A stretch of DNA of 34,585 nucleotides from Alphaproteobacteria bacterium (GTDB lineage Bacteria > Pseudomonadota > Alphaproteobacteria > Rs-D84), in the NCBI GenBank assembly GCA_017616785.1, contig JAFZXK010000016.1:1-34585 (forward strand), in the 5' to 3' direction. Below are positions 9,482 to 31,887 of this stretch, piece by piece. Made by a program: the position numbers and the translations under genes. The notes beneath the pieces were generated by a model. That model was not told where the DNA came from, made no database searches, and saw only the letters and a program-made list of their open reading frames with translations. Every line of letters begins with the position of its first letter. The first letter of the stretch is position 1.

Positions 9482-9545
9482 TAAAATTGGGTAGAGATTA
9501 ACACGATAGTTAATTGAAGACATCTAATCAAAGGAAAAAACAAAA

Positions 9546-9923: not shown

Positions 9924-9924
9924 G

Positions 9925-10058: not shown

Positions 10059-10230
10059 TTTGCGACACCCCGCCCGCTTTCGCTATGCTACAGCGAGGCA
10101 CCCCTCTAGGACATCACCCACGAAAAACGTTGCACATTTTTCGTGGGGCCCGATGGAGGGGAACATGATTCCAGAGTGCAAAGTTCTCCTCTGGCCAGAG
10201 GAGTACGGCGAAGCCGGGAGGTGTCGCCAC
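10059..10230. repeat. Modular palindromic repeat, module B cluster
   Basis: A series of nested and adjacent hairpins without coding potential. Visible are an outer pair GCGACACC (10062-10069) with GGTGTCGC (10220-10227), an 11-bp stem CCCACGAAAAA (10117-10127) with TTTTTCGTGGG (10137-10147), and the perfect palindrome CTCCTCTGGCCAGAGGAG near 10185-10203. The reverse complement of GATGGAGGGGAAC (10152-10164) recurs at 20109-20121, which links this cluster to the element there, though in a different module order. Confidence 0.6.
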
Positions 10231-10257
10231 TACCCGGGTCATGACCCCACTACCCCC

Positions 10258-10286
10258 TTGCAACCATGCTTGTTTTGTGATATAAT
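10258..10286 (+). promoter_or_regulatory. Promoter for the Cys-rich secreted protein gene at 10499
   Basis: TTGCAA (10258-10263), 17 nt, TATAAT (10281-10286), preceded by TGA to give an extended -10 (TGATATAAT). The predicted start near 10293 gives a leader of about 205 nt before the ATG at 10499. Confidence 0.7.
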
Positions 10287-10292
10287 TCTTTT

Positions 10293-10498
10293 GCTGGCGG
10301 GTTGTTTCGCCGGTGGGGTGTAACGACCCTTGAATGTGTTTGTCCGCGGGGACAGAAAACACCTCCAACCAATTTGTGGTTGGAGGGCGGTGAATATATC
10401 GAATAAACCCACTATTCAACACATTATAGTCGTTAACCTCCAACCACACGAAAGCAATTTCGGTGGTTTTAAATTTGCTTGAAAAAAGGAGGAAAAAT
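10293..10498 (+). promoter_or_regulatory. Structured 5' leader with alternative helices (attenuator- or riboswitch-like)
   Basis: This leader has three related segments: CCTCCAACCA (10362-10371), TGGTTGGAGG (10377-10386), and a second CCTCCAACCA (10437-10446). The middle segment can pair with the first (10 bp, 5-nt loop) or with the last (12 bp when extended to 10375-10386 with 10437-10448), not both. The last segment also overlaps a 10-bp hairpin, ACCAC-A-CGAAA (10443-10453) with TTTCGGTGGT (10458-10467), which is followed by TTTAAATTT. Choosing one helix frees or blocks that hairpin. I do not recognise a known riboswitch class, and the weak T-tract leaves termination uncertain. Confidence 0.5.
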
Positions 10499-11971: not shown

Positions 11972-11973
11972 AT

Positions 11974-12097
11974 AATCCCCTTCGTTGGCGAAGGGGAGGA
12001 CCACTGAAAGTGGCGGGGTAGTGGTGGCGCGAAAGCGCCAATGGACCCATACCCCTCGGCGGTTCCGCCGTACCCCTTTCCATAGGAAAGGGGAATT
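11974..12097 (+). repeat. Modular palindromic repeat, module A copy 2
   Basis: Begins 3 nt after the stop of the secreted-protein gene. It shows the same order of hairpins as copies at 9951 (inverted) and 20006: CCCCTTCG..CGAAGGGG, CCAC-TGAAA-GTGG, constant GGGGTAGT, an additional TGGCGC-GAAA-GCGCCA hairpin with a GNRA-type loop, ACCCATACCCC, CGGCGG-TT-CCGCCG, and CCCCTTTCC..GGAAAGGGG. Stems differ from the other copies but pairing is conserved. Confidence 0.75.
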
Positions 12098-12128
12098 AAA
12101 AAACGGGCACAATTGCGCCCGTCTTTTT
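12098..12128. terminator. Bidirectional terminator between convergent genes
   Basis: AAAAA, ACGGGC (12103-12108), 8-nt loop, GCCCGT (12117-12122), CTTTTT. The A-tract on one side and T-tract on the other allow termination of both the secreted-protein gene (+) and rplQ (-). Confidence 0.75.
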
Positions 12129-12130
12129 GC

Positions 12131-12206
12131 CGTCATACCGCGGAAACGCGGTATCTCTTTGCGTTTGTCGAAGTTCAACAAGATACCGCCTTGCGGCGGT
12201 ATGACG
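12131..12206. repeat. Paired inverted palindromic element (BIME-like)
   Basis: Two hairpins, ATACCGC..GCGGTAT (arm 12131-12155) and ATACCGCC-TTGC-GGCGGTAT (arm 12181-12206), are also inverted copies of each other, both bounded by CGTCATACC/GGTATGACG. The arrangement matches bacterial interspersed palindromic elements. It lies downstream of rplQ. Confidence 0.65.
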
Positions 12207-12210
12207 TTGT

Positions 12211-12238
12211 TTATACTAATTACTAACACTTACCACTA
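12211..12238 (-). repeat. TTAGTG/TAAGTG tract after rplQ
   Basis: On the - strand, immediately after the rplQ stop codon, the sequence reads TAGTGGTAAGTGTTAGTAATTAG, a run of TAGTG/TAAGTG units. Similar tracts occur at 17232, 19995, 20164, 21159 and 29444. Confidence 0.5.
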
Positions 12239-12802
12239 TTACTTTCCGGTGGCGCGGCGTTTTACCGCAACGGTCTTTTTTGCCGCGGTGGCTTTTTTCG
12301 CCACCGGTTCTTTGGCCGGTGTCTTGGCCGGTTTTTCGGCTTTTGGTGTTTTTGCCGTCTTTGGCGCATCGGTTGCGGTTGCTTCTTCGGCCTTGGCCGC
12401 GGCAACCGTTGGTTTTTGCGTCGGCTTTTTAGCATTCACATCGCGGTCAATAAATTCAATTATCGCCATCGGTGCGGCATCGCCATAGCGGAACCCGGCC
12501 TTTAACACGCGGGTATATCCGCCCGGACGTTTGGCATAGCGCGGCCCAAGCACAGTGAACAATTTTTTCACGGTTGCGTCGCATGCGTTGCCAAGTTCCG
12601 ACGCAGTTAAACGGCGGTTCGCAACAGTATCAACCTTTGCACGGGTAACCAATTTTTCCACGACACTGCGCAGATCCTTGGCCTTTGGCAAAGTTGTTTT
12701 GATTTGTTCTTTTTCAATAAGGTTCTTTGCAAGTCCAATAAACAAGGCCTTGCGAGCATTTGTGTCGCGATTAAAAGTGCGACCTGCTTTTTGGTGTCTC
12801 AT
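12239..12802 (-). CDS. rplQ: 50S ribosomal protein L17 with long Ala/Lys tail
   Basis: A 187-aa protein. Residues 1-123 are L17: [20 protein letters not shown], then [23 protein letters not shown], and [33 protein letters not shown]17 lies near the exit tunnel on the solvent side of the 50S subunit. Residues 124-187 form a low-complexity Ala/Lys/Pro/Thr tail (repeats like [18 protein letters not shown]). E. coli L17 is 127 aa. Such tails occur in alphaproteobacterial L17, but this one is long. It follows rpoA on the - strand, with AGGAGTAACC upstream, so the rpoA-rplQ pair is intact though inverted relative to rpsK. Confidence 0.97.
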
Positions 12803-12901
12803 CGGTTACTCCTTTATTTTGTTTCCGCCCTTGTCGGGATTACACCGTTTTCGTGCCCCAGGTTCACCCCAGCAACACGCGCTTTTTCCATATAAATTGT
12901 T

Positions 12902-13930
12902 TTACTTATATGGGTCTTCGTATTTTTTCGCCAACTCTGCAATGTTTTCTGGCGGCCAACCCGGAACTTCCATACCCAGGCCAAGTCCCATTGCCTCTAG
13001 TTGAATCTTGATTTCGTTAAGCGATTTACGCCCAAAGTTCGGGGTCTTTAACATATCGGCCTCGGTCTTTTGGACCAGTTCGCCAAGCCAATTGATTTTG
13101 TCGTTTTTCAAACAGTTGTTCGCACGAACCGAAAGTTCCAATTCGTCCACGCGTTTCAACAATTTCGGGTCGAATTGCAACGCGTCCTTGGCGGCTTCTT
13201 CTTCGGCCGGCGCACTAATTTGCGTTGGGTCTTCGAAATTGATGAACAATGTCAATTGGTCGGTCAAAATACGCGCCGCGAACGCGATTGCGTCTTCGGG
13301 TGTAACACTGCCGTTTGTTTTGACGGTCATTTCCAATTTGTCATAGTCGGTTGATTGCCCAACACGGGTTTCAGAAACCACAGTTGCAACATTCAAAATC
13401 GGCGAAAAGATTGAATCAACCGGAATCACGCCCAACGGTAACCCATCGGCATGCGCGTTCGCCGGAACATAGCCGCGCCCGGTGCCAAGTGTGATTTCCA
13501 TGTCAAGTTGCGCGCCCTTGTCAAGTGTGCAAAGTTCCGCGTCCGGATTCATGATTTCAATCGCACTGGTGCATTCGATCATGCCCGCCTTGACCACGGC
13601 CGGGCCGGTTGCATGCAAACTAACCTTGTGCTGACCTTCGGTGTTGGCCTTGAAATAAACGCCTTTGAGGTTAAGCAAGATATCTGCGACATCTTCGTGG
13701 ACGCCTTGGATACTTGAAAATTCGTGTTGAACGCCATCGATTTTCACATACAGCGGTGCGCATCCCTGGAGTGATGACAACAAGACACGCCGCAACGCCG
13801 TCCCAAGTGTAAGACCAAATCCCTTTTCCAGTGGTTCCGCGACCAATACGGCCATATTTGGATTATGTTCATCGGTGGTGATATTCAGTTTTTTCGGCTT
13901 TATCAAAGCCATCCAGTTTTTTTCAATCAT
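12902..13930 (-). CDS. rpoA: DNA-directed RNA polymerase subunit alpha
   Basis: A 342-aa protein. The N-terminal assembly domain has [27 protein letters not shown], and [16 protein letters not shown] follows. The C-terminal domain carries [21 protein letters not shown] with the UP-element/activator-contact Arg, then [13 protein letters not shown] and [14 protein letters not shown]. Length is typical for alphaproteobacteria. The alpha dimer nucleates RNA polymerase assembly. AAAAGGA lies upstream of the start. The gene normally follows rpsK on the same strand. Here it is transcribed toward rpsK with rplQ behind it. Confidence 0.98.
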
Positions 13931-14094: not shown

Positions 14095-17000
14095 TTAGAA
14101 TTGTGTATCGGTGCATTCTTCGGTAACTTCATCCCAGGTTTTGCAGTATTTGTTACCAAACAGAGGATTTTTTGTTTCGGCACAAGTTTTTGAACGCACA
14201 CACTTGTGGCAAACAAGATTTTCCCAATCAAATGTCGTTGTAATTGTTTCTGTGTAATTCCATTGGTTCGTTTCTTTTGAGGCGACGAGTGGTGCGTTTT
14301 CATCTATTACAAATCCTCGTTGAGTGCCATTTGCAGATGTGTTTCCACTTGTGGCATCGCCAACAAGTCCTATACCTGCAATACCTAACCCACCGACACC
14401 TATGGCTTCAGCTGCAGTAAGTTCAAATGTACCTATTAGTCCTATACTAGTTCCACCAGTAAAAGGTATTGCTATACATGCTGCTGTGATTGCAGCGGCA
14501 GCTAATATTTTTCCGCCAGCACTTTTTGGTGGTTCGGCTGAACGTGCAAGCGATGACATGTCGGCCAAGTATAAGCATGATTGACGTGCGATTTCACGAC
14601 GTAAATCTTTATTATTTTCACCGGCAATTTCGGCTTTGCGTTCCGCAATCGTTGAGTAATCTTTCAACATTTTTGCGTTTAATTCATCATATTTTGCGTA
14701 ATAATTTGCTTTGGTTTGCGCTAATGCAGATGCCGATATAGTACGACGCATTTGACTTGTTAAATTCGGAAAACGTGCTTTATTCGGATCTAGACTTGTG
14801 TCGTTTTGACCTTTAATGGTCCCCAACATTTTTTCATAACCTTGAAATTTGCGACCTTTCATACAGTATTGAACTTTTGGATCAGATTCAATCGCATTAA
14901 TAGCGTTTTGAATGCTCGTTTGCAGTGCTGCTAGTTCATCGTTTATACGACTCATTTGATTTTCTGTGATACTTGTTCTTCGGCCATTACCAGATAATAT
15001 GCCGTTTGACATGCTGCCAGAGCCAGTGCTAGACGATTTACCTCTATTAGGTGTCTGATTACCTGGTCGGTTAGTCCCATCGCGCAAAGGTTCATTTTCG
15101 GCCACATAACCATTTGCCTCGTCTGTATCTTTTTGTTCCAAAGCATCGAAATAGTCAACCGTACTAATTAAACCATCGTCGGTAATTGTAACGCTGTCCC
15201 AATAAATAATTCCATCAATTACCCCTGCGAACGGTTTTTCAGAATTTGAAGTATAGTTTATACTGCCGTCGGTTCCGGTAGTAATATCGCTAGAGTTCCG
15301 TCCGAGTTCGGCATCGGTAATCATATCAATATTTGGTCGACATTGGTTGTAATTGATACTCATGTCATTTGCACTACCTTGATATTCGCATATCTTGTAT
15401 TCCAAACTACGCGACCCAAGATCATTATCCACAACCAGGTCATCACAATTTTCGGTACTGCCACAGACCTTTATCATTGCGGCATCGGCGGCGCGTTGAC
15501 ATGCGGTTAGCATGTTATTATCGATATTAAGGAATATGCCGGTGGCGATGTCATCAAGTGTTTGTTGAACTGTTTTTTTGTCGCCTTGGTATTCATATTC
15601 GCATGCCGTTAATTTATCTTTGGGGCACATTTCGACAATTGTGGCGGTGTCCAATCCGATACACTGCGTATAATCTTCGCCGCAACGGTCTTCGGATTGC
15701 AGGCATGCCTTGAATTCATTTGTGCATGAATCAACACGCATAGATGCAAGGCGCGCCTTTACGTAAGTCATAATGTTGGGTTCGGCTGCTTTGCAGGGTT
15801 CAATTTCAACCCGGCATACTGATTCCAATGTTTCCGGTCGCGTTAGGCACATGTCATACGAACCCTCTGGGTCGTTCGGGTCCATCGTGTCTTTGCACGC
15901 CTTTTGAAAACAGTTTGATATGTTCGAAATACATGATGTGCGCATATTTGATTCAACAATCAATTCCGCAGATTTTATTTGTGGTGCGGCCTCTCGCAAA
16001 AACGCATCCCAAACTTGGTCGCGGACGTTCACACATTGTTGTGTCACCGTCATACAAATGTCTTTCTTGGCCAACAAAGAATCATATGTTTCCGCACGTA
16101 ATTTGATTTTTGATGTTGTTCCCTTTATCGTTTTTTCCTTTGTTGAATTGCCAAGCAAATTTTCGCGCACGGACCATTCGACGCACCCGGTAAAGTCATC
16201 GCCGCAACCGCCGGTGGTTTGCATACACTGTTTGAATTGAACCGTGCATTGCCCAAGGTCGTATTTGTTCGCATTGCGGTATTGTTCCAAGGCGGCTTCG
16301 CGCATCGCGCTTTGCGCCGCATATAGTTTTTGCGCGCTTTGTGTGCGGGATTGGCGCAAACTGTTTTCATACGCGGTGCAATCAGAACGAATGCGCTGTT
16401 TATACATCGATTCCATCAATGTCGATTGCGTTTTGCATTCGGGGATTTGCGCACTGCAAAGTTTCGCCGCGGCGCGATAAAGTGCGTCGCCGGTTTTGTT
16501 GCCGATTGAAACGCCGTCGGATGATATATCGAAAATATCTTCGGCATCAACATCAAAGTCCAATTCCATCGAATTCCATGAACTTAAATCTAACGATTGC
16601 CGTTTGGATTTCGCCGCGTCCGCCGTCACGCGCTTTGTCACCGAATCGGTTTTTGACATTACCGCATCAACGGCGTCGCCCATTTCAATGCGTTCAACGC
16701 CGACGGTCGCAAGTTGATAACTTTGTTCGTCAAGTTTTTGAATTTCTTCCAAAATCGCGTCATATTCGGCGTTCTTATCACTGCAGATACAGCGGCCGCC
16801 GTTCGCGTTGTCCAACATACAGAATGAATCCATACAACCGCTGAACTTGCCCCAGCACACTTGGTCAACCGCAGTGTTTTCCGTGGCGGATGCGACCTTG
16901 GTCCCGGTGCTAAGGACGCTTTGTTTCGCGGCACGTGCATTAGTTGTTGTGGGTTGTTGTATTGCGGCGCGACCGCGTTGCGTTGCGGTTGTGGGTTGTG

Positions 17001-17190
17001 TTGATAGTTGTTGTGTGGCGTTGCGTGACGTAACCGTGCGTGTATTAGATGTTGCGGTGGTTGAAACCGTCTCTTGGGGCGCGCGTGAAACGCGCACATT
17101 GGATGTGGTTGGTGTTGTCGAAGGCCGCGTTGCGCCAAATGCGGCGGACGTGCAGGCAAGAATTACCAATGCAAAAGATATCCGTTTCAA
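14095..17190 (-). CDS. Large Cys-rich secreted protein with repeated C-x6-C motifs (1031 aa)
   Basis: Function unknown. The start is TTG, the only codon that keeps the signal peptide (KRISFALVILACTSAAFG), with AAGGGG 7 nt upstream. Residues 21-110 are Thr/Ala-rich. Cys motifs follow: C112-x6-C119-x4-C124, C315-x6-C322-x6-C329-x6-C336, C379-x6-C386, C420-x6-C427-x4-C432, and C489-x6-C496-x6-C503-x6-C510. They are separated by long, probably helical stretches (140-195, 255-310). The second and last motifs are clear internal repeats (CTVQFKQC.../CTNEFKAC...). A Gly/Ala-rich hydrophobic region (about 900-960) may insert in a membrane, and the C-terminal tail has six or more Cys. The motif is shared with the genes at 17338, 21274 and 23663. 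Disulfide-bonded helical hairpins in the periplasm or on the cell surface are my inference. Confidence 0.85.
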   Translation of the reverse strand: MKRISFALVILACTSAAFGATRPSTTPTTSNVRVSRAPQETVSTTATSNTRTVTSRNATQQLSTQPTTATQRGRAAIQQPTTTNARAAKQSVLSTGTKVASATENTAVDQVCWGKFSGCMDSFCMLDNANGGRCICSDKNAEYDAILEEIQKLDEQSYQLATVGVERIEMGDAVDAVMSKTDSVTKRVTADAAKSKRQSLDLSSWNSMELDFDVDAEDIFDISSDGVSIGNKTGDALYRAAAKLCSAQIPECKTQSTLMESMYKQRIRSDCTAYENSLRQSRTQSAQKLYAAQSAMREAALEQYRNANKYDLGQCTVQFKQCMQTTGGCGDDFTGCVEWSVRENLLGNSTKEKTIKGTTSKIKLRAETYDSLLAKKDICMTVTQQCVNVRDQVWDAFLREAAPQIKSAELIVESNMRTSCISNISNCFQKACKDTMDPNDPEGSYDMCLTRPETLESVCRVEIEPCKAAEPNIMTYVKARLASMRVDSCTNEFKACLQSEDRCGEDYTQCIGLDTATIVEMCPKDKLTACEYEYQGDKKTVQQTLDDIATGIFLNIDNNMLTACQRAADAAMIKVCGSTENCDDLVVDNDLGSRSLEYKICEYQGSANDMSINYNQCRPNIDMITDAELGRNSSDITTGTDGSINYTSNSEKPFAGVIDGIIYWDSVTITDDGLISTVDYFDALEQKDTDEANGYVAENEPLRDGTNRPGNQTPNRGKSSSTGSGSMSNGILSGNGRRTSITENQMSRINDELAALQTSIQNAINAIESDPKVQYCMKGRKFQGYEKMLGTIKGQNDTSLDPNKARFPNLTSQMRRTISASALAQTKANYYAKYDELNAKMLKDYSTIAERKAEIAGENNKDLRREIARQSCLYLADMSSLARSAEPPKSAGGKILAAAAITAACIAIPFTGGTSIGLIGTFELTAAEAIGVGGLGIAGIGLVGDATSGNTSANGTQRGFVIDENAPLVASKETNQWNYTETITTTFDWENLVCHKCVRSKTCAETKNPLFGNKYCKTWDEVTEECTDTQF

Positions 17191-17217
17191 GATGAAACCC
17201 CTTCTACTATTCCCTGT

Positions 17218-17226
17218 ATTTTATCA
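17218..17226 (-). promoter_or_regulatory. Extended -10 for the 1031-aa secreted protein gene
   Basis: TGATAAAAT on the - strand (extended -10, TGnTAAAAT), 28 nt before the TTG start. No clear -35 is visible. It resembles the extended -10 elements before the genes starting at 19875 and 24532. Confidence 0.45.
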
Positions 17227-17231
17227 TAAAA

Positions 17232-17284
17232 TAGTGGTTAGTGCAAGTGTTAGTGAGAAGTGTTAGTGTAAGTGGTTAGTGGTG
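17232..17284 (+). repeat. TTAGTG/TAAGTG tract between two secreted-protein genes
   Basis: About 53 bp of imperfect units GTTAGTG, CAAGTG, GTAAGTG and GAAGTG. The 24 nt at 17258-17281 are identical to 21157-21180. Confidence 0.65.
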
Positions 17285-17287
17285 GAA

Positions 17288-17320
17288 AATAAAAAAAACG
17301 TCCGCGCGGGGCGGACGTTT
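17288..17320 (-). terminator. Terminator after the 845-aa secreted protein gene
   Basis: On the - strand: ACGTCCGC (17311-17318), 5-nt loop, GCGGACGT (17298-17305), followed by TTTTTTT. A strong 8-bp stem with a long T-tract. Confidence 0.9.
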
Positions 17321-17337
17321 ATTGGGACACCACACAA

Positions 17338-19875
17338 TTATTCAAGTCGTATTGGACAATTGTTTATATCCAAGTATTGCTTCGCCTTTTGCGCACTGGG
17401 GCGACATTCTTTGATTGCCGACTGATATTTGCACGCATTCGAAACACGCATTGAACGCGGAACATATATCACCTTGGCCGAATTACAATCGGTTGCATTG
17501 GTAAATAGTTTGCATGCGTTAATCCATTCGTCGCAATTGGAAACCCGTGAAAAGCCCGCATTTGGATCCGGTTCATCGGAATTCGGGTTTGGTGTTGGGT
17601 TTACCAAACATACACCGTTTGATTGGGCCACGCCAAGGTTTGCAATACACGCACTGCCCGACGGGGTGCAAGGATTATTTATCAATGTCGTACTAGACAA
17701 ATTGCCCGGACGATAGTTGAACTTTGCATTGCGGCATTCGTTTGCGTCCGTGAATAACGCGCATGTCAATGACCAGTTATCACAGTTCGTAACAACCGCG
17801 GTCGGTGCAATCGTCGACGGCAAGTTCAACGCCCATTTCACATAGAAATCGCGCAGGCGGTCGATTGTGTACGATTTGCCGAAGCTTACGCGGGCAAGTC
17901 CGTCCGCCACGCGGCAATTGATGTTGTTCTTTTCAACGAACGCCGTGATCGCGGTCGCGGTTCCACCGGTTGCGGCGCCGATTCCCGCACCAACCAGTGT
18001 CGTCTTCAAACGATTGCCTTTTTCGCCCGCCAAGATTTCAATTGAATTAAATAACTGGTCGAGTTTTTTCAGTTGTTCACGGAACTCTTCTCTGGTAAGG
18101 CAACCCTCTTTCTTGGTGCAATACACATCTGTGCCATCGGCCCACGACTGGTTCAGGTTAATAAATTTGCATTCTTTCACTTCTTCCGTTTTGGCCGAAG
18201 TTTTGCTTGAATACCCGATACAATCAGATGTTGTGTTGTTGCCAGCCGGGACCGCGCCGTGTACCCAATTTTTTATTGATTCAAAAATATCATTCGCAAC
18301 ATTTTCGCTGAAACAGTTATTTTGTATTCCGGCCAATGCCTTGGTTGCGACAGTGTTGAAAAGGGTTCTGTCATTAGCAAGCAGTTTGCATGCACAAGGG
18401 TCTGCGCTGCACGCCTCGTGTGTTTGTCCTCTTATGCTAACTTGGGCATGTGTTGCGTCTGGATGATATTTTCCGGTTTCTTTGACACAGTCAATGCGAT
18501 AGCGAAAATGTCCCGCAATAAATCCATCTATATTTGGTTCTTCGACTTTTGTTTCCTCTTTCGTATCACGGCAAGTATCGACCGCCTCTTTGCCCATTTG
18601 CCACAGGTCGTACAGGTCCATAATTTCGCGGCACTGGCCCAGTGTCATGGACTTTGCGGTGGTTGATAAATCTGATGTGATATATTGATTGATTGCGCCA
18701 ATTTTTTGGTTGTCTTTCAATTCTTTTAACAAAGTATTGCGCATGGATTCGTTTGTGCAATCGAATTCACGATCGCCATGTCCGGCCAACGCGCCGATTC
18801 CCGCGCCAAGCAATGTTCCGCCCGGAATTGCGGTTGCCGCAACAGTTTTCGTATTGTTCATAAGTGAAAATCCAAACAAATCTTTGTTGCATGTGAACGA
18901 AGAACCGGTTGCGCGCCATACTTCGGCGGGGGTTTCATCGCCGACTATGCCGAACAGCCAACTATTGGTAATCGGTGTGTCTTTGTTATATGCCGCCACA
19001 CGCAGCAAGCATTGTGCATTTTCGGCGTCCCAACGTGCATAGTACCCGCGTTTGCCGTCAATGCCGGTGTCATTTACCCGCGCGCCAAGTGGGTTTTGTT
19101 TGCTTAGTGAATCATTTCGTGCGCTGTTATACGCGCCGACACGCTGGTCATATTCCGAAGTTACGCTGTCGGTGACCGATACCGCATTAAATGCCGCACC
19201 GTATGTATTGCGGTCAAGCAACAGGCATGTGTTTTCCGCCTGGGTCGGGGTTAGGCCCGTTTGACGCAAAACGAACGCATAGTATTCCGGTTGCACTTTG
19301 CGCGCGTTAAAGTCAAGCCACACATCTGATGTCGATGCGTAAACATATTGACAATTGCGGCGGACGGTTGAAACACAGTGTTCAACCTGGGTCAAACAAA
19401 GGCCCATACCGTTCACGATTGAATTGCGCAAATCTTCATTAAACAGCGAATTTATGCCGTTTGGCAACGCGCCACCATTTACACAGCCCAAAACATCGTT
19501 CATACAGTTTTCGACCGTATATGACGAATTTTCAACACCGCCATCGGCACAGTTCGTCTGTGGCGTTGGTGGGTTTGGTGCCGGCGGAACCGGGGTGTCC
19601 GGGTCGTCTGGCCCTGGGTTTGGGTTCGGATTCGGGTTAGGATTGGGGTTTGGGTTCGGTGTCGGATTTATATCGTTACTGCTAACGGTCATATTGCCAA
19701 CGCCACTTACCGGTAAAATCGGAATAGACGGCATACGCGCCGCCGCCGTTCCGCGTCCACGGTTCGCCGTTGCGGTTCCGCGCGATGCATCGGGAGCCGC
19801 AAAACAGACGGTCGCAATGGCGATGATTGATAAACTTGTTACACTTTTACATACAGTTTTCAGCATATTTCGCAT
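17338..19875 (-). CDS. Large Cys-rich secreted protein with Asn-Pro repeat and glycine zippers (845 aa)
   Basis: Function unknown. The signal peptide is MRNMLKTVCKSVTSLSIIAI with cleavage near CFA-AP. An (Asn-Pro)n linker spans about residues 70-88 and a Pro/Asp-rich spacer follows to 107. Cys motifs include C124-x6-C131 and C160-x6-C167-x7-C175, in the style of the neighbouring secreted proteins. Two glycine-zipper segments, TLLGAGIGALAG (about 355-370) and TTLVGAGIGAATGG (about 625-645), could be membrane-associated. Near the C-terminus a module is duplicated: NCDNWSLTCALFTDANEC and NCDEWINACKLFTNATDC. GGAGGG lies upstream of the ATG and a terminator follows. I infer an exported, disulfide-rich envelope protein. 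Confidence 0.85.
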   Translation of the reverse strand: MRNMLKTVCKSVTSLSIIAIATVCFAAPDASRGTATANRGRGTAAARMPSIPILPVSGVGNMTVSSNDINPTPNPNPNPNPNPNPNPGPDDPDTPVPPAPNPPTPQTNCADGGVENSSYTVENCMNDVLGCVNGGALPNGINSLFNEDLRNSIVNGMGLCLTQVEHCVSTVRRNCQYVYASTSDVWLDFNARKVQPEYYAFVLRQTGLTPTQAENTCLLLDRNTYGAAFNAVSVTDSVTSEYDQRVGAYNSARNDSLSKQNPLGARVNDTGIDGKRGYYARWDAENAQCLLRVAAYNKDTPITNSWLFGIVGDETPAEVWRATGSSFTCNKDLFGFSLMNNTKTVAATAIPGGTLLGAGIGALAGHGDREFDCTNESMRNTLLKELKDNQKIGAINQYITSDLSTTAKSMTLGQCREIMDLYDLWQMGKEAVDTCRDTKEETKVEEPNIDGFIAGHFRYRIDCVKETGKYHPDATHAQVSIRGQTHEACSADPCACKLLANDRTLFNTVATKALAGIQNNCFSENVANDIFESIKNWVHGAVPAGNNTTSDCIGYSSKTSAKTEEVKECKFINLNQSWADGTDVYCTKKEGCLTREEFREQLKKLDQLFNSIEILAGEKGNRLKTTLVGAGIGAATGGTATAITAFVEKNNINCRVADGLARVSFGKSYTIDRLRDFYVKWALNLPSTIAPTAVVTNCDNWSLTCALFTDANECRNAKFNYRPGNLSSTTLINNPCTPSGSACIANLGVAQSNGVCLVNPTPNPNSDEPDPNAGFSRVSNCDEWINACKLFTNATDCNSAKVIYVPRSMRVSNACKYQSAIKECRPSAQKAKQYLDINNCPIRLE
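19618..19668 (-). repeat. In-frame hexanucleotide repeat encoding (Asn-Pro)n
   Basis: About eight degenerate units of AAYCCN on the - strand encode the NP repeat of the 845-aa protein. Units are a multiple of three, so copy-number change would alter linker length without frameshift. Confidence 0.8.
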
Positions 19876-19901
19876 GAAAAACCCTCCTTTCTATCTTTGG
19901 T

Positions 19902-19910
19902 ATTATACCA
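19902..19910 (-). promoter_or_regulatory. Extended -10 for the 845-aa secreted protein gene
   Basis: TGGTATAAT on the - strand, a consensus extended -10, 27 nt before the ATG at 19875. AAAGGAGGG lies between them. No -35 match at standard spacing. Confidence 0.6.
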
Positions 19911-19966
19911 CAGAATAGGGCAATAAAAAAGTATTTTTTAAAATTTTATAAAAAATAAATACTTTG

Positions 19967-19994
19967 TTGACAGAAAGAAATTTATGTCTATAAT
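19967..19994 (+). promoter_or_regulatory. Consensus promoter for the membrane protein gene at 20172
   Basis: Perfect TTGACA (19967-19972), 16 nt, perfect TATAAT (19989-19994), with an AT-rich stretch upstream (19921-19960) resembling an UP element. Transcripts would start near 20001 and include the palindromic element as 5' leader. Confidence 0.8.
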
Positions 19995-20005
19995 GTGTTA
20001 GTGTA

Positions 20006-20163
20006 AATTCCCCTTCTTTCCAAGAAGGGGTGGCGGGGAACCCCGCCGGGGTAGTTTTACCCATACCCCGATGCCATTCGGCATCACCCCTTTCCATGGG
20101 AAAGGGGAAGTTCCCCTCCATCGGAAGGGTGCCGGCTAGCAGCCGGCGGGGTGGGGAAAAGGT
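20006..20163 (+). repeat. Modular palindromic repeat, modules A+B copy 3
   Basis: Module A (20006-20111) has hairpins CCCCTTC-TTTCCAA-GAAGGGG, GGCGGGG-AA-CCCCGCC, constant GGGGTAGTTTTACCCATACCCC in the middle, GATGCC-ATTC-GGCATC, and CCCCTTTCC-ATG-GGAAAGGGG. Module B (20109-20163) has TTCCCCTCCATCGG and a GCCGGC-TAGCA-GCCGGC hairpin. Module A is the inverted counterpart of 9951-10058. It fills most of the 5' leader of the following gene and is flanked on both sides by TTAGTG-type motifs (19995 and 20164). Confidence 0.75.
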
Positions 20164-20171
20164 TAATGTAA

Positions 20172-21170
20172 GTGAGCAGTGAAAAAAAATCTTTTACGAA
20201 TTTTTGGCGCGCGGTTGCGTGGACGGGGATTTATGTCTTTGTAATGTGGGCGATTTTGCGCGGGCTTTTTAATTTCAATATGTTTTCGGTTGCGCATTTA
20301 ACGAAACTTTTGCATTTACAGTTGCACGGATTCGCGGGTTTTGTTTTCGGAATCTTGGTTTTGGCGGCGGTGCCGCTTTATGTCGCAACAATGGTCTTGA
20401 CCGTGCGAAATAAAGAAATGCCGGTTAAATTGCCGTTGCCGAAATGTTTTACGGATGCACCCCCGGCCCCGACGCCTGCGCCAGTCGTTCCGGTTGTGAC
20501 GGCCAATGAAACTTTGCCGGAATTGCGTGCCGGTGTGCCGCCCGAGATGCGTGAAACATTTATGCGGGCCAAGAAAAACTATGGCGCGCGGCAGATGTCG
20601 GTGTTTAATCGTCCAAATGCGCCGGTTAAAGCAAACCAAACTGAATTGGTGCCCGAACCCGTTACCGAATCGGTTGTGGCAACAAAGGTTGAAGATGTGC
20701 CGGCGTATGGTGGTATGCCGATACCAACGGACTTTGATATGGATGCGTCCGCGGAAACATCGAACGATGTTCCGGTCTTTGCAGATATAAACTTTGATGA
20801 TGACGATTCGGCCAAAGATACAACCGCGGCGGATGAAAGCCCGACGGAAAAAGTTTGCGCATTGCTACGCGCGGTGGGTGTGGATGCAAATGTTGCCGGT
20901 GATTTAATAGTTGCAAATGGCTATGCGATTGCGGTGCATGATGACGATGATTTTTGGGTGCCGGACGAATTGGACTGGTTCGCGGCGGGGAAACAAAAAC
21001 CGTCGCCGATTGCAGCGCTGAAAAAGGCGGAATCTGAACAGAATTTGAAACCGATTTTGTATCTGGCGACGAACAGCATAATGGATATTGAGGAAAAATC
21101 CGCAGAATGGATTGCGGACGGAATAATGGTCGTGACGGATAAAGATGATTTGAGAAAAGTGTTAGTGTAA
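20172..21170 (+). CDS. Two-TM membrane protein with Pro-rich and acidic linker, unknown C-terminal domain
   Basis: A 332-aa protein that I do not recognise. The start is GTG, the first in-frame start after the promoter, with GGGGAAAAGG upstream. Two hydrophobic segments (about residues 13-32 and 51-73) anchor it in the inner membrane. A Pro/Ala/Val stretch (100-112), a basic patch (128-150) and an acidic region (180-215, FDDDDSAKDTTAADE) lead to a compact C-terminal domain (about 222-332) with CALLRAVGVDANVAGDLIVANG, HDDDDFWVPDELDWF and a final DKDDLRKVLV. It has no Cys motifs like its neighbours and lies on the opposite strand. Its end codons lie within a TTAGTG tract. Confidence 0.8.
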   Translation: MSSEKKSFTNFWRAVAWTGIYVFVMWAILRGLFNFNMFSVAHLTKLLHLQLHGFAGFVFGILVLAAVPLYVATMVLTVRNKEMPVKLPLPKCFTDAPPAPTPAPVVPVVTANETLPELRAGVPPEMRETFMRAKKNYGARQMSVFNRPNAPVKANQTELVPEPVTESVVATKVEDVPAYGGMPIPTDFDMDASAETSNDVPVFADINFDDDDSAKDTTAADESPTEKVCALLRAVGVDANVAGDLIVANGYAIAVHDDDDFWVPDELDWFAAGKQKPSPIAALKKAESEQNLKPILYLATNSIMDIEEKSAEWIADGIMVVTDKDDLRKVLV

Positions 21171-21190
21171 GTGGTTAGTGCAAGTGGGTG
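21159..21190 (+). repeat. TTAGTG/TAAGTG tract overlapping a stop codon
   Basis: GTGTTAGTGTAAGTGGTTAG and the following TGCAAGTG overlap the final codons (Val-Leu-Val-stop) of the membrane protein gene. The 24 nt at 21157-21180 are identical to 17258-17281. Confidence 0.65.
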
Positions 21191-21191
21191 G

Positions 21192-21235
21192 CTACCACTT
21201 CGCCTAGAGCTTCGTGGGACAGGGGAAAGTGGTAG
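21192..21235. repeat. Long-loop inverted repeat between convergent genes
   Basis: CTACCACTT (21192-21200) pairs with AAGTGGTAG (21227-21235), enclosing 26 nt. It lies between the stop codons of two convergent genes. No T-tract on either strand. Confidence 0.45.
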
Positions 21236-21273
21236 TATAGGCAGGGTAGCAATTACAAAAGCTTTTTTTATGG

Positions 21274-23649
21274 CTATGGCTCTATGCAAATGGTTGTAAC
21301 GTCGTAGGCCCCGCCAACATCATCAACAATAGTAGCGTTATATTGAAAAACCGTGTTAAGACCTGGACCGCCAACTCCCCGATATTGAAGCCGCCTTAAT
21401 TGTCCGTTAGTGCATTTTTTTATGTTGTTCAAATAATTATCTGTGTCTAGCCCTTTCCAGCAACCAGAATGACATACGTACATTGTTACATTACTACTTG
21501 CAAATGTTGATTCTTTAGCGTTCTGACCGCATGTATATTTTTGGTTATTAATGGTTAATGATTTTTTACATCCTGGACAATCACACTTATTCTGTATACA
21601 TGTGCCAGAATTATCTTTGTTATTTCTTTGCCAAGTGCCACCATTATTTGTGCACTCATCGATGGCTTTGCAATCTAGAGTATAAGAAGACATTTGGCTA
21701 CTTAAATCTATTGCGCCTAGATCGGTTTTGGCTGTGCAATATTCGGCTGATATACTACAAATAGCATCACTTGGAACATTTTTTAGCGTGACGGTTTCTG
21801 ATTGACTGGATTTTTTATGATAGGTATTACTCTGACATTCTAATGTTGCAAATAATTTGACTTTGCCTGTTTGGTCTGTTATCGGCAATGTTATATTGAC
21901 AGTTTCTGGTTTTTTTGATATGTCGACACAGTCGCTACCGTTCCACCAACATTTTTTTGCGTGTAATATTTGGCAATTTGTTTTGTTGTAATTACTGCAA
22001 TCGACACCTTTGTCTTCTTCCTCTGGTTTGTTTTCTTGCGTTTCTTGTGTAGTTGGTGAAATTCCTTGATTACTACCCCCCCCGGTTGACGAATCAGTTT
22101 TTGCTGTACAGGTATTGTTCTTAAATGTACAGTATTCCGATGGACAATTATTTTGGTTGAACATTTTACAGTATTCTTTTTTATCAATCTCATCCAGAAC
22201 GTTGTAGTCGTTTAATGTATTCGTTAACGTGTCATATGGTTTGTTTCCTGTGGAATTTGAATTGTTCCCGCCGTTGTTATTTGTGCCGGTATTGTCGCCG
22301 CCGGTACAACCGGTTTTGTCGTCCCATGTGCCACCGTTCTTGGTGCAATCTTCCTTTGGTTTGCGCATGTCACATTTGCTGCCCTTGTTAAATCCGGCAC
22401 TGACCCATTCGCCACCGGCGGATTCGCATGCTTCCTTGGCCTGGGCTTCGGCGTTTTGCGTGTCGATTCCGCGTGTAACCGCGCCCGATGTCCAAAGGCC
22501 CGCCGCCGTGCCAAGTCCCGCACCCATTGCCGCCGCGGATGCGGATGTTTGCGACCGGGTTAGACGCTGGGCATTTTCAATGTATGTCGTAATGTCAATG
22601 CCAAACCAATTTGGTGTGCATTGAAACACGTCGCCGGAATAAAGTTTCTTTGACGCGACGGGGTTATCGGTGGATATTTTATCAACAAAGAAATTCACGG
22701 TATATACGCAGTCAAGTGTGCGTTCATCGAACATTGCACCAAACCGCTGGCATTGATTGCGCATTAAATCGCGCAGTTCATAAAGGCGTTTTTCGTCTTT
22801 TTGTGCCTGGGTCGTGGCGGCGGTGCGCAAATCGCCAAACACGCCACTGATACGGCCGGCAAGGCCGCTGTCTTGTTCACGGCATTCATCGGCGATGGAT
22901 TTGCATTTTGCAATCGCACTGTCGCCCGCGGATTTCGAAAGACATTTATCCAATGTTTTGCCGCAAATTCCAAACATGCAATCATTGTATCGATTGCCGC
23001 AATTTACAACAGATTGATAGTATGCAAGTTCGATGCCTGTGTCACGGTCCGCCAATATTTCCGGCGCAAGCATTGTGTATTCATGTCCAGTGCATTTCGT
23101 TTGACGGCGACACGCGTCCATTTTGTTGCCCCAAACGGTGGTGGAATCAGATGCGCACTTTGTGAAATCCGAACCGCATTTTTCCGCCATGCATTTGCGC
23201 AGGCCCGCGTCGCAAACATTTGCCGTTGTTATGCCCGATGAACCGGTTGCATCATTTGCGCTTTTTTCGCTTTGTGCGTCAAGCAATGCGCGCTGGCGTG
23301 CAATGGTGTTGGCAAGTTCGGTTGCGGATGAATCCGATGTGTTCGCACCCATATCCGCCAAGACATCGTTAAACATTGATGTTTTATTATCGACAATTAT
23401 AACCCGCTCTGGTTCGGGTTCCGGTGTTGTTATGGTCGTTTCGGATTGAGTGGTTGTTGTTGTAACCGCGGTTGTCGATTGGGTATTATTTGTTGTGGTT
23501 GGCATACGCGCCCCGGTTGATGGTGTCCGGTTTTGCATTTGGTTTGCCGCCGTATTTGCCAATGTCGGGCGCGCCGTGGTTGCCGCGCACGCAATGCCCG
23601 CGGTTGCCGCGATGACTGCGAACATGGAACAACCGCAAAAGATTTTCAT
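21274..23649 (-). CDS. Large Cys-rich secreted protein with C-x6-C motifs and variable AT-rich C-terminal half (791 aa)
   Basis: Function unknown. I place the start at the ATG at 23649 (MKIFCGCSMFAVIAATAGIACA signal) because GAAGG lies 5 nt upstream. The ATG at 23661, 1 nt after the previous gene's stop, is the alternative (795 aa). A Thr-rich linker is followed by two copies of C-x6-C-x4-C-x6-C (CDAGLRKC... about 146-165 and CGNRYNDC... about 217-236), then a glycine-rich segment MGAGLGTAAGLW. The C-terminal half holds repeated small Cys modules: C-x-NGGTW (twice), and two YC/DC....C.....C....C units like CKMFNQNNCPSEYC. That half is markedly AT-rich. It is probably co-transcribed and translationally coupled with the gene at 23663. 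Confidence 0.85.
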   Translation of the reverse strand: MKIFCGCSMFAVIAATAGIACAATTARPTLANTAANQMQNRTPSTGARMPTTTNNTQSTTAVTTTTTQSETTITTPEPEPERVIIVDNKTSMFNDVLADMGANTSDSSATELANTIARQRALLDAQSEKSANDATGSSGITTANVCDAGLRKCMAEKCGSDFTKCASDSTTVWGNKMDACRRQTKCTGHEYTMLAPEILADRDTGIELAYYQSVVNCGNRYNDCMFGICGKTLDKCLSKSAGDSAIAKCKSIADECREQDSGLAGRISGVFGDLRTAATTQAQKDEKRLYELRDLMRNQCQRFGAMFDERTLDCVYTVNFFVDKISTDNPVASKKLYSGDVFQCTPNWFGIDITTYIENAQRLTRSQTSASAAAMGAGLGTAAGLWTSGAVTRGIDTQNAEAQAKEACESAGGEWVSAGFNKGSKCDMRKPKEDCTKNGGTWDDKTGCTGGDNTGTNNNGGNNSNSTGNKPYDTLTNTLNDYNVLDEIDKKEYCKMFNQNNCPSEYCTFKNNTCTAKTDSSTGGGSNQGISPTTQETQENKPEEEDKGVDCSNYNKTNCQILHAKKCWWNGSDCVDISKKPETVNITLPITDQTGKVKLFATLECQSNTYHKKSSQSETVTLKNVPSDAICSISAEYCTAKTDLGAIDLSSQMSSYTLDCKAIDECTNNGGTWQRNNKDNSGTCIQNKCDCPGCKKSLTINNQKYTCGQNAKESTFASSNVTMYVCHSGCWKGLDTDNYLNNIKKCTNGQLRRLQYRGVGGPGLNTVFQYNATIVDDVGGAYDVTTICIEP

Positions 23650-23662
23650 CGTTGCCTTCATT

Positions 23663-24532
23663 TTACTTTAACACCGCGCATGCTGTTTTATAGAACTGAC
23701 ATAGGCGTTCCGCCATTGAACGTTCGGTTTTGTCATTGTCGCACTTGTTCGGCATATTGTTATTACAGACCGTATTCACGCATGAATTAAATGTGTTGCC
23801 GTTTTTGCAATTCGTTTTTGCACCCGAAAGTTTTGATTCACGTGTGCTTTGATAATTTTTGACCAATGTTTGCAGTACGCTTTCGCGCCGTGCGTATGTG
23901 GTTTTGCGGTCGTTTGTAATTGCGCTGCGAAATTCTGCGATATATTCATCGCAACCGTCCGCGTCCGTTGCGCATTCGGCGATGGATTGTGTAAAGGTTG
24001 CATCTTCTTCGCAATTTTCAAACGATGTACCGCACTTTTTATTCATGCACGTTGTGAACATGGTATTGCAAGATGATTTTGTCGGCTTTTTGCTAATGTT
24101 CTGCATCGCCGTTGTGATTTGCATGTTGACGCCGGCGGCCTTGCAAGATTGTTCGATTAATTTGTCGTAAAGTTTGGATACGTCGTCGGTTGTGCAATCG
24201 GGTAATTTCTTGATACATTCGGTTGTCGCCCAAATATACCTTTTGCCGGGGTCGGACGGGGCAACGCGTAACTCCGTGGCCGTTAGGGTGTATTTTGTTG
24301 ATTGCCCTGCGGTGATTGATGAAAGACCCTTTTGCGATGGGGCATCGCCGGCGGCGGATGTGCCACAGTACTGACACCGGGCGGCCGGATTCATGCCAAT
24401 ATTTATCGCGCATGCGGAATCAAGGCAACGTTGCATATTGACCAATGAACACTGGGGCGCGGCGGAAAACGCGCCAAAAACCGGCACAATTGCGCAAAAG
24501 GTCGCAATAAAAAGCGTTTTGGAATAAATCAT
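23663..24532 (-). CDS. Cys-rich secreted protein with C-x6-C-x4-C-x6-C motif (289 aa)
   Basis: Function unknown. The start at 24532 gives a signal peptide, MIYSKTLFIATFCAIVPVFG, with cleavage near FSA-AP. A longer open frame to 24766 exists but runs over the divergent promoter and antisense to the next gene, so I exclude it. Motif C155-x6-C162-x4-C167-x6-C174 (CNTMFTTC MNKKC GTSFENC) is the clearest form of the family signature. A variant lies at C242-x8-C251-x4-C256-x7-C264. Helical, charged stretches separate them. It has no glycine zipper, so it may be the soluble member of the set. The next gene begins within 1-13 nt of its stop. Confidence 0.85.
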   Translation of the reverse strand: MIYSKTLFIATFCAIVPVFGAFSAAPQCSLVNMQRCLDSACAINIGMNPAARCQYCGTSAAGDAPSQKGLSSITAGQSTKYTLTATELRVAPSDPGKRYIWATTECIKKLPDCTTDDVSKLYDKLIEQSCKAAGVNMQITTAMQNISKKPTKSSCNTMFTTCMNKKCGTSFENCEEDATFTQSIAECATDADGCDEYIAEFRSAITNDRKTTYARRESVLQTLVKNYQSTRESKLSGAKTNCKNGNTFNSCVNTVCNNNMPNKCDNDKTERSMAERLCQFYKTACAVLK

Positions 24533-24602: not shown

Positions 24603-24630
24603 TTGACAAGGGTAAAATTTTGTCTATAAT
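24603..24630 (+). promoter_or_regulatory. Consensus promoter for the small membrane-anchored protein
   Basis: TTGACA (24603-24608), 16 nt, TATAAT (24625-24630). The spacer end and -10 read TGTCTATAAT, the same as the promoter at 19967-19994. The start is predicted near 24637. Confidence 0.8.
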
Positions 24631-25067: not shown

Positions 25068-25092
25068 TGCCATAGATGTGCAAAAAATATAA

Positions 25093-25120
25093 ATCGGGGC
25101 GGGTTGCCCCGATTTTTTTT
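25093..25120 (+). terminator. Rho-independent terminator after the small membrane protein
   Basis: ATCGGGGC (25093-25100), loop GGGTT, GCCCCGAT (25106-25113), then TTTTTTT. An 8-bp stem and strong T-tract, isolating this gene from the autotransporter gene downstream. Confidence 0.93.
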
Positions 25121-25122
25121 GC

Positions 25123-25151
25123 TAGACATAATATTCATTTTTTGGTAAAAT
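25123..25151 (+). promoter_or_regulatory. Promoter for the autotransporter-like gene
   Basis: TAGACA (25123-25128), 17 nt, TAAAAT (25146-25151), with TGG before the -10 (extended). The start would be near 25158, 17 nt before the ATG. Confidence 0.6.
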
Positions 25152-25174
25152 GGCGTGTGATACAGAGAGAATTT

Positions 25175-28100
25175 ATGAAATTCATACGCTTGGTTGTATT
25201 TGCTTTGTTTTTGTGCCCGTTTGTGGCACGTGCGGCGGCCGTGACGGAATTTACCGTTGCGTCGCAGTTGCTGGCCGCGGCGCGCAATGCGGACATTCAA
25301 CAGGTTCAGGCGTTGGTTGCGGGTGGCGCAAATATAAACTTTATTGATGGAACGGGATTGTCGCTTGTTTGTACCGCATTGATGAATAATGATTTGCGTG
25401 CGGCCCAAATTTTACAGATGTATGGTGCGGATGCATCGAAGTGTGACCAGCAAATAAGGAAATATAGAACACGACGCGCGCCAGAGCGAACGGGGGGGCT
25501 GTTCGGTGGCCTATCCACCGCCCAGGGAATGATATTGGCGGCGGCGGGTGCCGCCGTTGTTGTAGGTGGGCTTTTTTTATTGACCGATGTTTTTGACCCG
25601 GACAACGATAATGGCTACGCGGGCAGTGGTGCGGGTTCCGGGTCCGGTGGTGGTGGCGGTGATACGACCGGCACGGGTGTTCCACTTTTTGCATCGGGGT
25701 TGCCGTATGGACCTTTGTTACCGAGTGCAAGTGCAGAAAGCAAAAATTATGCGGAAAATTTGTCGTATTACGCACCGGCGGATACGACAAGTATTTTGTA
25801 TAAGAACTTTCAATATATGAATCAAAATGAAAATTATCTGCTGTTGATGCATGGGTATTCGCCACTTGCACGTGGGTATTTGGGAATGCGGACACTGCGT
25901 GATTCAAGTACATATGCGCCACTGAGTTTAAGTGGATATAATTTAGGAAATGACCCCGTGGAAGGTGGTCGGCCGGTAAATGTTGCGCTGATTACCGCAA
26001 ATGGTGTGAACGCGGCGGCCGGCACATCACTTGAAGATAAATTGGTTGCGTGGACGACCAATGCGGGGCCATCATCGCTAAATCCGGCAAGTAATACCAT
26101 GGTGTCCAGTAAATATTATAACAACAAAATTACCACTGGAACAGATGGTTCTTCAATGGAAGACGATACAACGGCGGAAGATTTTTCTTTGTTAGGGTAT
26201 TTTGATTGGTCCAATTCGGGGACGGCGGTTTATAATGGATTGGCGACGGATGTTGATAATATGCTTGGCAAGATTGTTGCCGGAAATACCGCCGGTTATA
26301 CAAATCCTGATTTTTTTGGTTTTATGCCAAACGGTCAGATGGCAATATATCGCACTGGTGGTGGAACACGTATGGTTACATTGGCGACACCGGTAAATGC
26401 GGGAACATATTCGGGGACGGCGCTTGCCACCGGTGGAACGGTGAATTTATTTAATGAAACGTTGACCGCAAATGTGGTTGGAAGTTCGGTTGTGTTGTCT
26501 AATGAAACATCAACATATAACGGTTATATTGGTACAGATGGGTTGCTGTATATTGATTCTAATGGTGATGGCAAGGTGGATGTGGCATACATTATGAGTT
26601 CTGGCAACCTTGTTCAATCCAAGGAATTGCAAAATACGGATTATTATAACTATAGTGCGATGGTGGATGCCGCCGGACGTGCGCATTCGGGGGACCTTTC
26701 GGGTGGGCGTTCAAAGGTCGATATTATCGCAAATGCCAGTGTTATTGAACCGTTGCATTTGACCGATGCCGCAACAATTGAAACGGTTTTGGCGTCTGGG
26801 GCAACAAATTATGCAACAACATTTGGAAATTTAGTTGCGAATGCGTATGGTGCCACAGATACAAGTAATTTGCCACAGACAAATGCAACATCTTTTTTTA
26901 ATTCGCTTGGGTCGTCGTATTCACCTCTTACGATATTTTCAACGGGTGGGTCGGTTACCGATGCGAATTGGTCGGCTTCGCCACTTGCCGCGACATTTGA
27001 AAATGCGGCGCCGTTGGTGTATCAAAACCTTGAACATTTGTTTATGTCGGTTGTTGCGGTTGGGGCATCGACCGCCGATGCGACTTCGATTCTGGCAAAT
27101 TCTGATACAAATGCCGTGCCGTATCAGTTGGCGCAGTGGGCGGTTGCGGACGCCGCGGCGGGAACAACAACGTATTACAAATCGCGCGTATGTGGTGTCG
27201 CGGGAACGGGTGGAAATGGTATTGATCCGTGGTGTTTTGCGGCGGTTGGGGTGACGGATGAAATGGCGGTCGCGGCGGCGGCCGGTGCGGCGGGTGTGTT
27301 GACGTCTGCGTTTTACTATATGACACCGCAACAGATTTTTATGTTGCTTGCACTGACGGCGGATGGACCATCTTTGGGGCGGCTTAGTTCGGGACAAACA
27401 CTTACGGAATCAGCGCTTGCGTCGTATCTGCAATCGATGTATCAAATGCCGGAATCTTATCAGTTTCGTATAGATAACGGCGAAAATTACTTTGATGTGT
27501 TTAGGGAAGTTTTTGGTTACGGTGTGATAAACCTTGAACGGGCGACGACGCCGGGAACGAATTTATATTTCTATTCGGGTGGCGATATAGTTTCCACATC
27601 GGGTAACGCATATTGGCGTGCCGCGTCGACGACGGGTTTTCGCGGGTCGGCGGCGTTGAATTTGGGACGTGCGGCGATAAGCACCGCGGCGTATGATATC
27701 TTGGAAAATATTGATGGAACGATGCGGTTGCCGCGTATTTGGAAGAATGATTTCGCGCTTGGTGGCGGCACGCGTCATGCGCTTTATATGGGTGATGTGT
27801 TGGGCGATTTGCGAGTGCGGGCGCATGAAGACAACATGGTGCGTATTGGTAACATGGCATTAGGTTTTACGCGTTCTGCGCCTTCGTACGATGATAGTAT
27901 GGGTGGGATTGATAATATGCGGTTTGAATATGCGAATGATTCATGGAAAATTGCTGCGGATTATCAGCGTTATTTAACGGACGCGGAATCGCGGTTTAGT
28001 GGCGTGGCAAATCCGATTTTGGCTTTGGCATCAAATGCGATTTCGACAAGTGCCGATTATAAATATGGAAACTTGTTCTTTGGTGCGCGTGCGATATCTG

Positions 28101-31860: not shown

Positions 31861-31887
31861 GTTGGTTCCTCTTGGTTTGTTGTTGTA

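Follow-up and report, generated by a model that had tools for sequence, protein, structure and literature searches.

Four neighbouring minus-strand genes in a 34,585-nucleotide contig (JAFZXK010000016.1, hereafter the window) encode exported proteins, which we designate P0001 to P0004, and three of these (P0001, P0003 and P0004) belong to a protein family built from a repeated six-cysteine unit. The window is one contig of a 1.06-Mb genome in 25 contigs, and its source is Candidatus Enterousia (Alphaproteobacteria, GTDB order Rs-D84); the relatives retrieved by protein search are uncultured alphaproteobacteria, nearly all from rumen, gut or faecal metagenomes, and several are named Candidatus Enterousia. 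Both the family and its six-cysteine repeat are well supported. P0002 is connected to the set by a different, second module, and the pattern in which cysteines are lost points, with good support, to three nested disulfides within each unit.

How is the repeat constructed? An earlier interpretation of the window (the sequence-only reading) had described a four-cysteine motif shared by four secreted proteins and had quoted five full copies of it: CTVQFKQCMQTTGGCGDDFTGC at residue 315 and CTNEFKACLQSEDRCGEDYTQC at residue 489 of the 1031-amino-acid (aa) P0001, CDAGLRKCMAEKCGSDFTKC and CGNRYNDCMFGICGKTLDKC in the 791-aa P0003, and CNTMFTTCMNKKCGTSFENC, the one copy in the 289-aa P0004. All five were found where they had been placed, and they exceed chance, in that a shuffled protein is expected to contain 0.013 to 0.026 copies (p ≤ 0.001 and 0.0015 for the two-copy proteins, and 0.025 for the single copy). 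The most frequent cysteine spacing across the four proteins is C-x6-C, with 29 nearest-neighbour gaps of six, and P0001 has 11 such pairs against 1.2 expected. Unit-against-unit alignment revealed that the four-cysteine motif opens a longer unit, C1-x6-C2-x4/6-C3-G-x5-C4, which continues through a variable linker to C5-x6-C6 and then into a long helix. There are four units in P0001 (U1 to U4), three in P0004 (X1 to X3) and two in P0003 (V1 and V2). When U2, U4, V1, V2 and X2 are compared among themselves, hhalign probabilities range from 50 to 97%, and controls in which the columns were shuffled and the cysteine columns kept reach maxima of only 1 to 23%: U2 with U4 reaches 96.0 (controls ≤4.0), V1 reaches 97.0 with X2, 93.2 with U2 and 91.9 with U4 (controls ≤23), and V2 with X2 reaches 94.6. 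U1 (CMDxFC...GGRCxCS), its P0004 form X1, U3 and X3 are more divergent and were assigned by their order and cysteine pattern. U1 is the most widely conserved part of P0001, and each cysteine is kept at a frequency of 0.91 to 1.00 across 96 non-redundant relatives.

We considered whether the three proteins resemble one another in more than the positions of their cysteines. First, an iterated profile started from residues 85-600 of P0001 gathers the P0004 orthologues and then the P0003 orthologues, whereas decoys with fixed cysteines and all other residues shuffled gave no match below E 0.1 from the second iteration onwards (in the first there was one marginal match, at 0.015). Second, alignment-against-alignment comparison by hhalign gave 80.4% for A3 with A6, 75.7% for A4 with A6 and 58.8% for A3 with A4, where the control maxima were ≤2.0%. 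Because the profile gathers these orthologues while cysteine-preserving decoys fail, the homology of P0001, P0003 and P0004 beyond cysteine spacing is well supported. The shared signature holds for the 1031-, 791- and 289-aa proteins, but not for the 845-aa P0002, to which a looser form of the motif had been attributed. P0002 contains C-x6-C pairs without a strict copy of the motif and never joins the iterated profile; compared with the full proteins, its repeat-like segment scores no higher than the controls, although one stretch matches U2 weakly (18.5%, control 0.5%). We consequently rejected P0002 as a member of the repeat family.

P0002 does share something else with P0003. After its repeats, P0003 carries a second module with the pattern C...C-V-[YF]-T...G-x-x-F-x-C...FGID and, behind it, a glycine zipper. 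Both recur in P0002 (hhalign 86.5%, highest control 2.5%). A profile of module 2 from P0003 gathers the P0002 family at E 6e-8, together with three proteins of a gene cluster in a distant family (discussed below), and no decoy. To judge from these alignments, it is by module 2, and not by the cysteine motif, that P0002 joins the set.

How might the six cysteines of a unit be paired? In the aligned rows, we found that they disappear mostly in pairs: C322 with C379 (C2-C5 of U2) in 9 rows, C432 with C448 (C3-C4 of U3) in 7 of 7, C112 with C252 (C1-C6 of U1) in 5 of 5, C496 with C522 (C2-C5 of U4) in 2 rows from two separate lineages, and, as an additional U1 pair, C134 with C271 in 1 of 1. On a tree built without the cysteine columns, these pairs show 2, 1, 2, 2 and 1 shared-branch losses, respectively. 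The exceptions are one loss of C322 alone, one of C379 alone and two U4 rows in which C503 goes missing with C522; one of the single losses (L031) is probably an alignment slip, because the partner cysteine is also absent in alignment A1. Because the cysteines are lost as C1-C6, C2-C5 and C3-C4 pairs, we infer, with good support from co-evolution rather than from chemistry, that two C-x6-C helices are joined by nested disulfides, three per unit. The sequence-only reading had proposed that the four cysteines of its motif pin two short helices by two disulfides, and this proposal is not supported. C322 is missing in about ten aligned rows, in which C315, C329 and C336 are never missing, and it is lost with the downstream C379; pairing of C1 with C4 and C2 with C3 inside the motif is unlikely, since C322 is lost without C329 or C336.

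Structure prediction is consistent with a helical repeat. AlphaFold2 models of P0001 residues 101-600 (mean predicted local distance difference test score 81.3) and P0003 residues 127-464 (69.3) are mostly helical in the repeat region, as the sequence-only reading had expected, and the C-x6-C pairs lie within helices or at their ends. Foldseek against PDB structures returned nothing below E 1.4 for the P0001 core or 5.1 for P0003, and the best VIA-align Z scores, 6.4 and 6.2, are in the range of unrelated helical bundles. Among viral models for P0003 nothing convincing appeared, and absence from the VIA list excludes nothing. Neither Pfam nor NCBIfam gave a match over cut-off for P0001 to P0004, Pfam scans of 24, 29 and 33 relatives gave no consistent family match, and a search of PDB sequences gave no match. 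Weak Pfam matches to DUF6557, HEPN_RES_NTD1, FTA4 and Trypan_PARP were set aside as below cut-off, limited to few members or caused by low complexity. The suggestion that these are exported proteins of an undescribed family, with a repeated cysteine signature and no named domain, is supported, and none of the libraries searched returned a named domain.

The family is widespread within its order. It was detected by profile in 141 of 142 Rs-D84 genomes and in none of the 380 other alphaproteobacterial genomes sampled (the contig scan used alignment A2, A1 being too diverse), and so, to the extent of this alphaproteobacterial sampling and as judged by sequence profile, this is an unnamed protein family confined to Rs-D84. 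In the present genome, there are about nine further family genes, and with P0001, P0003 and P0004 the family occupies approximately 28 kb, or approximately 2.7% of the genome by summed open reading frame lengths. P0002, P0003 and P0004 are present in every congener searched and are single genes apart from weak extra matches. The P0001 gene is in tandem in 13 of 79 loci, once triplicated (L168, L182, L189, L199, L204, L205, L206, L214 and others), and the paralogues diverge in their C-terminal halves. We rejected an origin from phages or other mobile elements: no relative was found in viral contigs, P0001 has no plasmid match, and PHROGs gave a single weak, low-complexity match, which is trivial.

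What might such proteins do? By inspection, all four have a Sec-type signal sequence with an N-terminal hydrophobic stretch. Glycine-zipper runs, GxxxGxxx[GAS], had been ascribed to three of the proteins; we located them in P0002 and P0003, while P0001 has instead a hydrophobic glycine-rich double segment. DsbA, one of the two oxidative-folding proteins named in the sequence-only reading, was detected in 28 of 30 genomes. We propose that the core of each repeat would consist of two antiparallel helices, each with one C-x6-C pair, stapled by the C1-C6 and C2-C5 disulfides; the third disulfide, C3-C4, would close the connecting loop, and the long helix would lead on to the next repeat. The proteins would be exported by the Sec pathway and oxidised by DsbA, and the stacked repeats may form a stiff helical stalk. 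Module 2 and the glycine-zipper hairpins of P0002 and P0003, together with the hydrophobic hairpin of P0001, would probably keep the assembly attached to, or embedded in, the outer membrane, where it may serve stability or contact with a partner. Oxidation by DsbA, stacking into a stalk, anchoring by glycine zippers and a role in a joint assembly are inferred with less support than the pairing, and an envelope or surface role is plausible but unproven. Taken as a whole, the idea that P0001 to P0004 form an outer-membrane-associated envelope or surface assembly of disulfide-stapled helical stalks has, in our estimation of the sequence evidence, an even chance of being right.

Several observations weigh against this proposal. 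The predicted template-modelling scores of the P0001 and P0003 models are only 0.50 and 0.41, which leaves the arrangement of the repeats unsettled. For U3 and X3, the match is one of cysteine pattern and not of profile. Several co-losses trace to few branches, so that the independent events are few, and two U4 rows lose C503 together with C522, which is probably, though not provably, a misalignment in diverged paralogues. The membrane location rests on hydrophobic patterns. DsbB, which would bear on the reoxidation of DsbA, was found in 0 of 30 genomes, whereas the same search detected it in 6 of 14 control genomes. Finally, the envelope-gene neighbours described below vary between families and may be there by chance, and we found no account of how these uncultured bacteria express the genes or of any phenotype.

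The gene neighbourhoods favour the proposal in two ways, by suggesting a set of genes that works together and by placing distant relatives next to envelope genes. In Enterousia, the stable set consists of rpoA-rplQ, P0001, P0002 with a divergent membrane protein gene, P0003 and P0004: rplQ lies ≤2 kb from P0001 in 64 of 66 loci, the divergent 332-aa gene lies within 1.5 kb of P0002 in 57 of 60, and P0004 immediately precedes P0003 in the same orientation in 29 of 32 copies. In a member of another family (L265, f5), rplQ is followed, after one intervening gene, by five repeat-family genes in one run, of which three are P0001-like, one is P0004-like and one is P0003-like. Distant relatives adjoin rseP-bamA-skp (L262), bamA (L264) and a gene for a LolC-like permease (L261). 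These outer-membrane biogenesis genes beside members from distant families would also suit a periplasmic or outer-membrane structural lattice, in which disulfides stiffen the envelope and no contact is made with other cells, and so would the abundance of paralogues for a reduced genome, the many cysteines, the Sec signals and the Thr/Arg-rich linkers that follow them. We regard such a lattice as unlikely, if still worth serious thought. Rs-D84 genomes retain RodA, MreB and MrdA, and a peptidoglycan wall is therefore expected (PMC12306168); moreover, the co-losses predict intramolecular pairs, which would leave few cysteines for cross-links.

A second arrangement could point to a different machine. 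In one genome of family f2 (L266:1376-10642), the genes of five exported proteins that carry either U1-like motifs or module 2, the latter detected by profile in three of the five, are flanked on one side by a prepilin-like gene (GRSLIEMLGVLAIM; PF07963, E 0.002, below the curated cut-off) and on the other by a type IV leader peptidase gene (PF01478, E 6.6e-8). This cluster would fit a role as accessory components of a secretion machine or one resembling a type IV pilus, in which helical cysteine-rich subunits work with a prepilin. However, the cluster occurs in one genome only, and no prepilin motif was found in the other loci examined, including the window and Enterousia, no genome-wide search for pilus genes having been made; we think this function distinctly improbable. 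A broader version, in which the repeat and module 2 proteins constitute a surface or envelope machine for partner contact that is peculiar to Rs-D84 and is coupled in some lineages to a prepilin and its peptidase, is to our minds improbable.

Could the proteins instead be adhesins or secreted factors aimed at host or protist cells and duplicated for variation? Enterousia has been assigned to Rs-D84, whose members have reduced genomes without respiratory chains and are thought to be partner-dependent (PMC12306168), and this predicted lifestyle would suit adhesins, as would a multi-copy family with tandem P0001 genes and diverged C-terminal halves. The core set, however, is nearly universal and syntenic beside ribosomal genes, and three of its genes occur in every congener searched, which gives it the look of housekeeping rather than of variable effectors. 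We therefore hold this explanation to be very doubtful.

Table 1. Positions in the window of the four genes, their repeat units and modules, and adjoining features
Feature	Position	Strand	Description or basis
P0001, 1031-aa exported protein	14095..17190	-	signal sequence, Thr/Arg/Ala-rich linker, four six-Cys units, C-terminal hydrophobic Gly-rich hairpin, C-x2-C tail
U1 of P0001, residues 112-271 (C112, C119, C124, C134, C136, C245, C252, C271)	16378..16857	-	conservation, co-loss
U2 of P0001, residues 315-386	16033..16248	-	co-loss; homologous to U4, V1, V2, X2
U3 of P0001, residues 420-466, degenerate, without CG	15793..15933	-	order and Cys pattern, co-loss
U4 of P0001, residues 489-530	15601..15726	-	hhalign with U2, co-loss
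Paired hydrophobic, Gly-rich stretch of P0001 (residues 889-934) that may form a membrane hairpin	14389..14526	-	hydrophobic pattern
P0002, 845-aa exported protein	17338..19875	-	Pro/Asn linker; C-x6-C pairs conserved at 124/131 and 160/167; module 2 and its glycine zippers
Module 2 of P0002, about residues 280-360, ending in GTLLGAGIG zipper	18796..19038	-	common to P0003 by hhalign
P0003, 791/795-aa exported protein	21274..23661	-	two six-Cys units, module 2, glycine zipper, variable Cys-rich tail
V1 of P0003, residues 150-190 (795-aa numbering)	23092..23214	-	hhalign
V2 of P0003, residues 221-260 (795-aa numbering)	22882..23001	-	hhalign
Module 2 and glycine zipper of P0003, residues 293-403 (795-aa numbering)	22453..22785	-	hhalign, profile
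P0004, 289-aa exported protein, minimal family member, units X1-X3	23663..24532	-	directly upstream of P0003
X2 of P0004, residues 155-194	23951..24070	-	hhalign
332-aa predicted membrane protein, divergent from P0002, possible accessory	20172..21170	+	conserved neighbour; no Pfam match over cut-off
Terminator-like hairpin between P0002 end and P0001	17296..17320	-	pattern match only
Terminator-like hairpin just past P0001	14072..14093	-	pattern match only
Sigma-70-like promoter match, 12/12, upstream of gene at 24660	24603-24630	+	pattern match
Sigma-70-like promoter match, 12/12, upstream of gene at 20172	19967-19994	+	pattern match

Other features of the window were also recorded. The C-terminus of P0001 (14095-14250, minus strand) ends in a C-x2-C tail, VCHKCVRSKTC, for which the paralogue L040 has NCHVCRMQHVC. 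In the adjoining ribosomal region (9104-13930), rplQ and rpoA are on the strand opposite to rpsM and rpsK, which implies that the window and a handful of close relatives have a split, inverted version of the usual ribosomal operon; in most congeners, the ribosomal genes run in one direction. Between rpsK and the rplQ-rpoA pair lies a gene for a 502-aa cysteine-rich exported protein with a glycine-zipper-like stretch and no Pfam family (10463-11971, plus strand), and related genes occupy the corresponding position in L141-L143, three close relatives. A frequent neighbour of P0004 encodes a 1236-aa exported protein with weak N-terminal ankyrin similarity and an autotransporter-like look (25076-28786, plus strand). 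Towards the contig end on the minus strand, a gene of the choloylglycine hydrolase family (30778-32082; PF02275, E 5.4e-63), possibly a recent acquisition, stands beside recombinase genes, namely two serine recombinases or resolvases (PF00239; 32040-34585).

How does the family compare with known systems? Among exported proteins, the cysteine-rich outer membrane proteins OmcA and OmcB of Chlamydia stiffen the envelope by disulfides. Like them, the Rs-D84 proteins are cysteine-rich exported proteins of host-dependent bacteria with reduced genomes, and an envelope role is proposed here; unlike them, they have no Pfam or NCBIfam match, their pairing appears to be intramolecular and nested, and wall-shape genes are kept in Rs-D84 (PMC12306168). 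The GxxxGxxxG hydrophobic runs of P0002 and P0003 recall glycine-zipper outer-membrane proteins of the YMGG-like and YiaD/OmpA types, but P0002 is far below the respective cut-offs (10.9 against 28.9 bits, and 11.2 against 175).

The closest parallel in architecture is mitochondrial, and the literature on twin C-x6-C motifs that surfaced in our searches concerns mainly mitochondrial cases. In the twin CX9C protein TRIAP1, an inner Cys18-Cys37 and an outer Cys8-Cys47 disulfide are formed (PMC12114033). The proposed Rs-D84 hairpin would likewise have antiparallel helices, each with a C-xn-C pair, and an inner and an outer disulfide, as do the small Tim (twin CX3C), twin CX9C and CHCH proteins, and it would also be made by an oxidative folding pathway. 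However, the spacing is x6 in nearly all units, and not x9 or x3; the units have a third, innermost cysteine pair and are repeated in tandem on long helices; and the proteins are bacterial, with Sec-type signals and in genomes that nearly all carry DsbA, and are not imported into mitochondria and oxidised by MIA40. We did not file the family under CHCH, given this spacing and the lack of a Pfam CHCH match in any member scanned. The resemblance is analogy and not homology, as the sequence-only reading had held. NDUFB10, a disulfide-containing mitochondrial substrate of CHCHD4 with the pattern CX6C-X29-CX11C (PMC12114033), shares a C-x6-C half, but it is a single-unit complex I subunit with x6 in one half only and was not returned by our search of PDB sequences. 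What is new, then, is a family named in no library searched, whose proposed hairpin plan resembles the mitochondrial twin-CXnC plan but whose spacing, extra pair, repetition, location and sequence do not. The family would provide a marker of the uncultured Rs-D84 bacteria and a first handle on how they are built or meet their partners. If our interpretation is correct, this hairpin with its three nested disulfides would represent a novel means of building stable helical repeats, small enough to be expressed, oxidised and solved, and it would apparently have evolved independently of the mitochondrial twin-CXnC hairpin.

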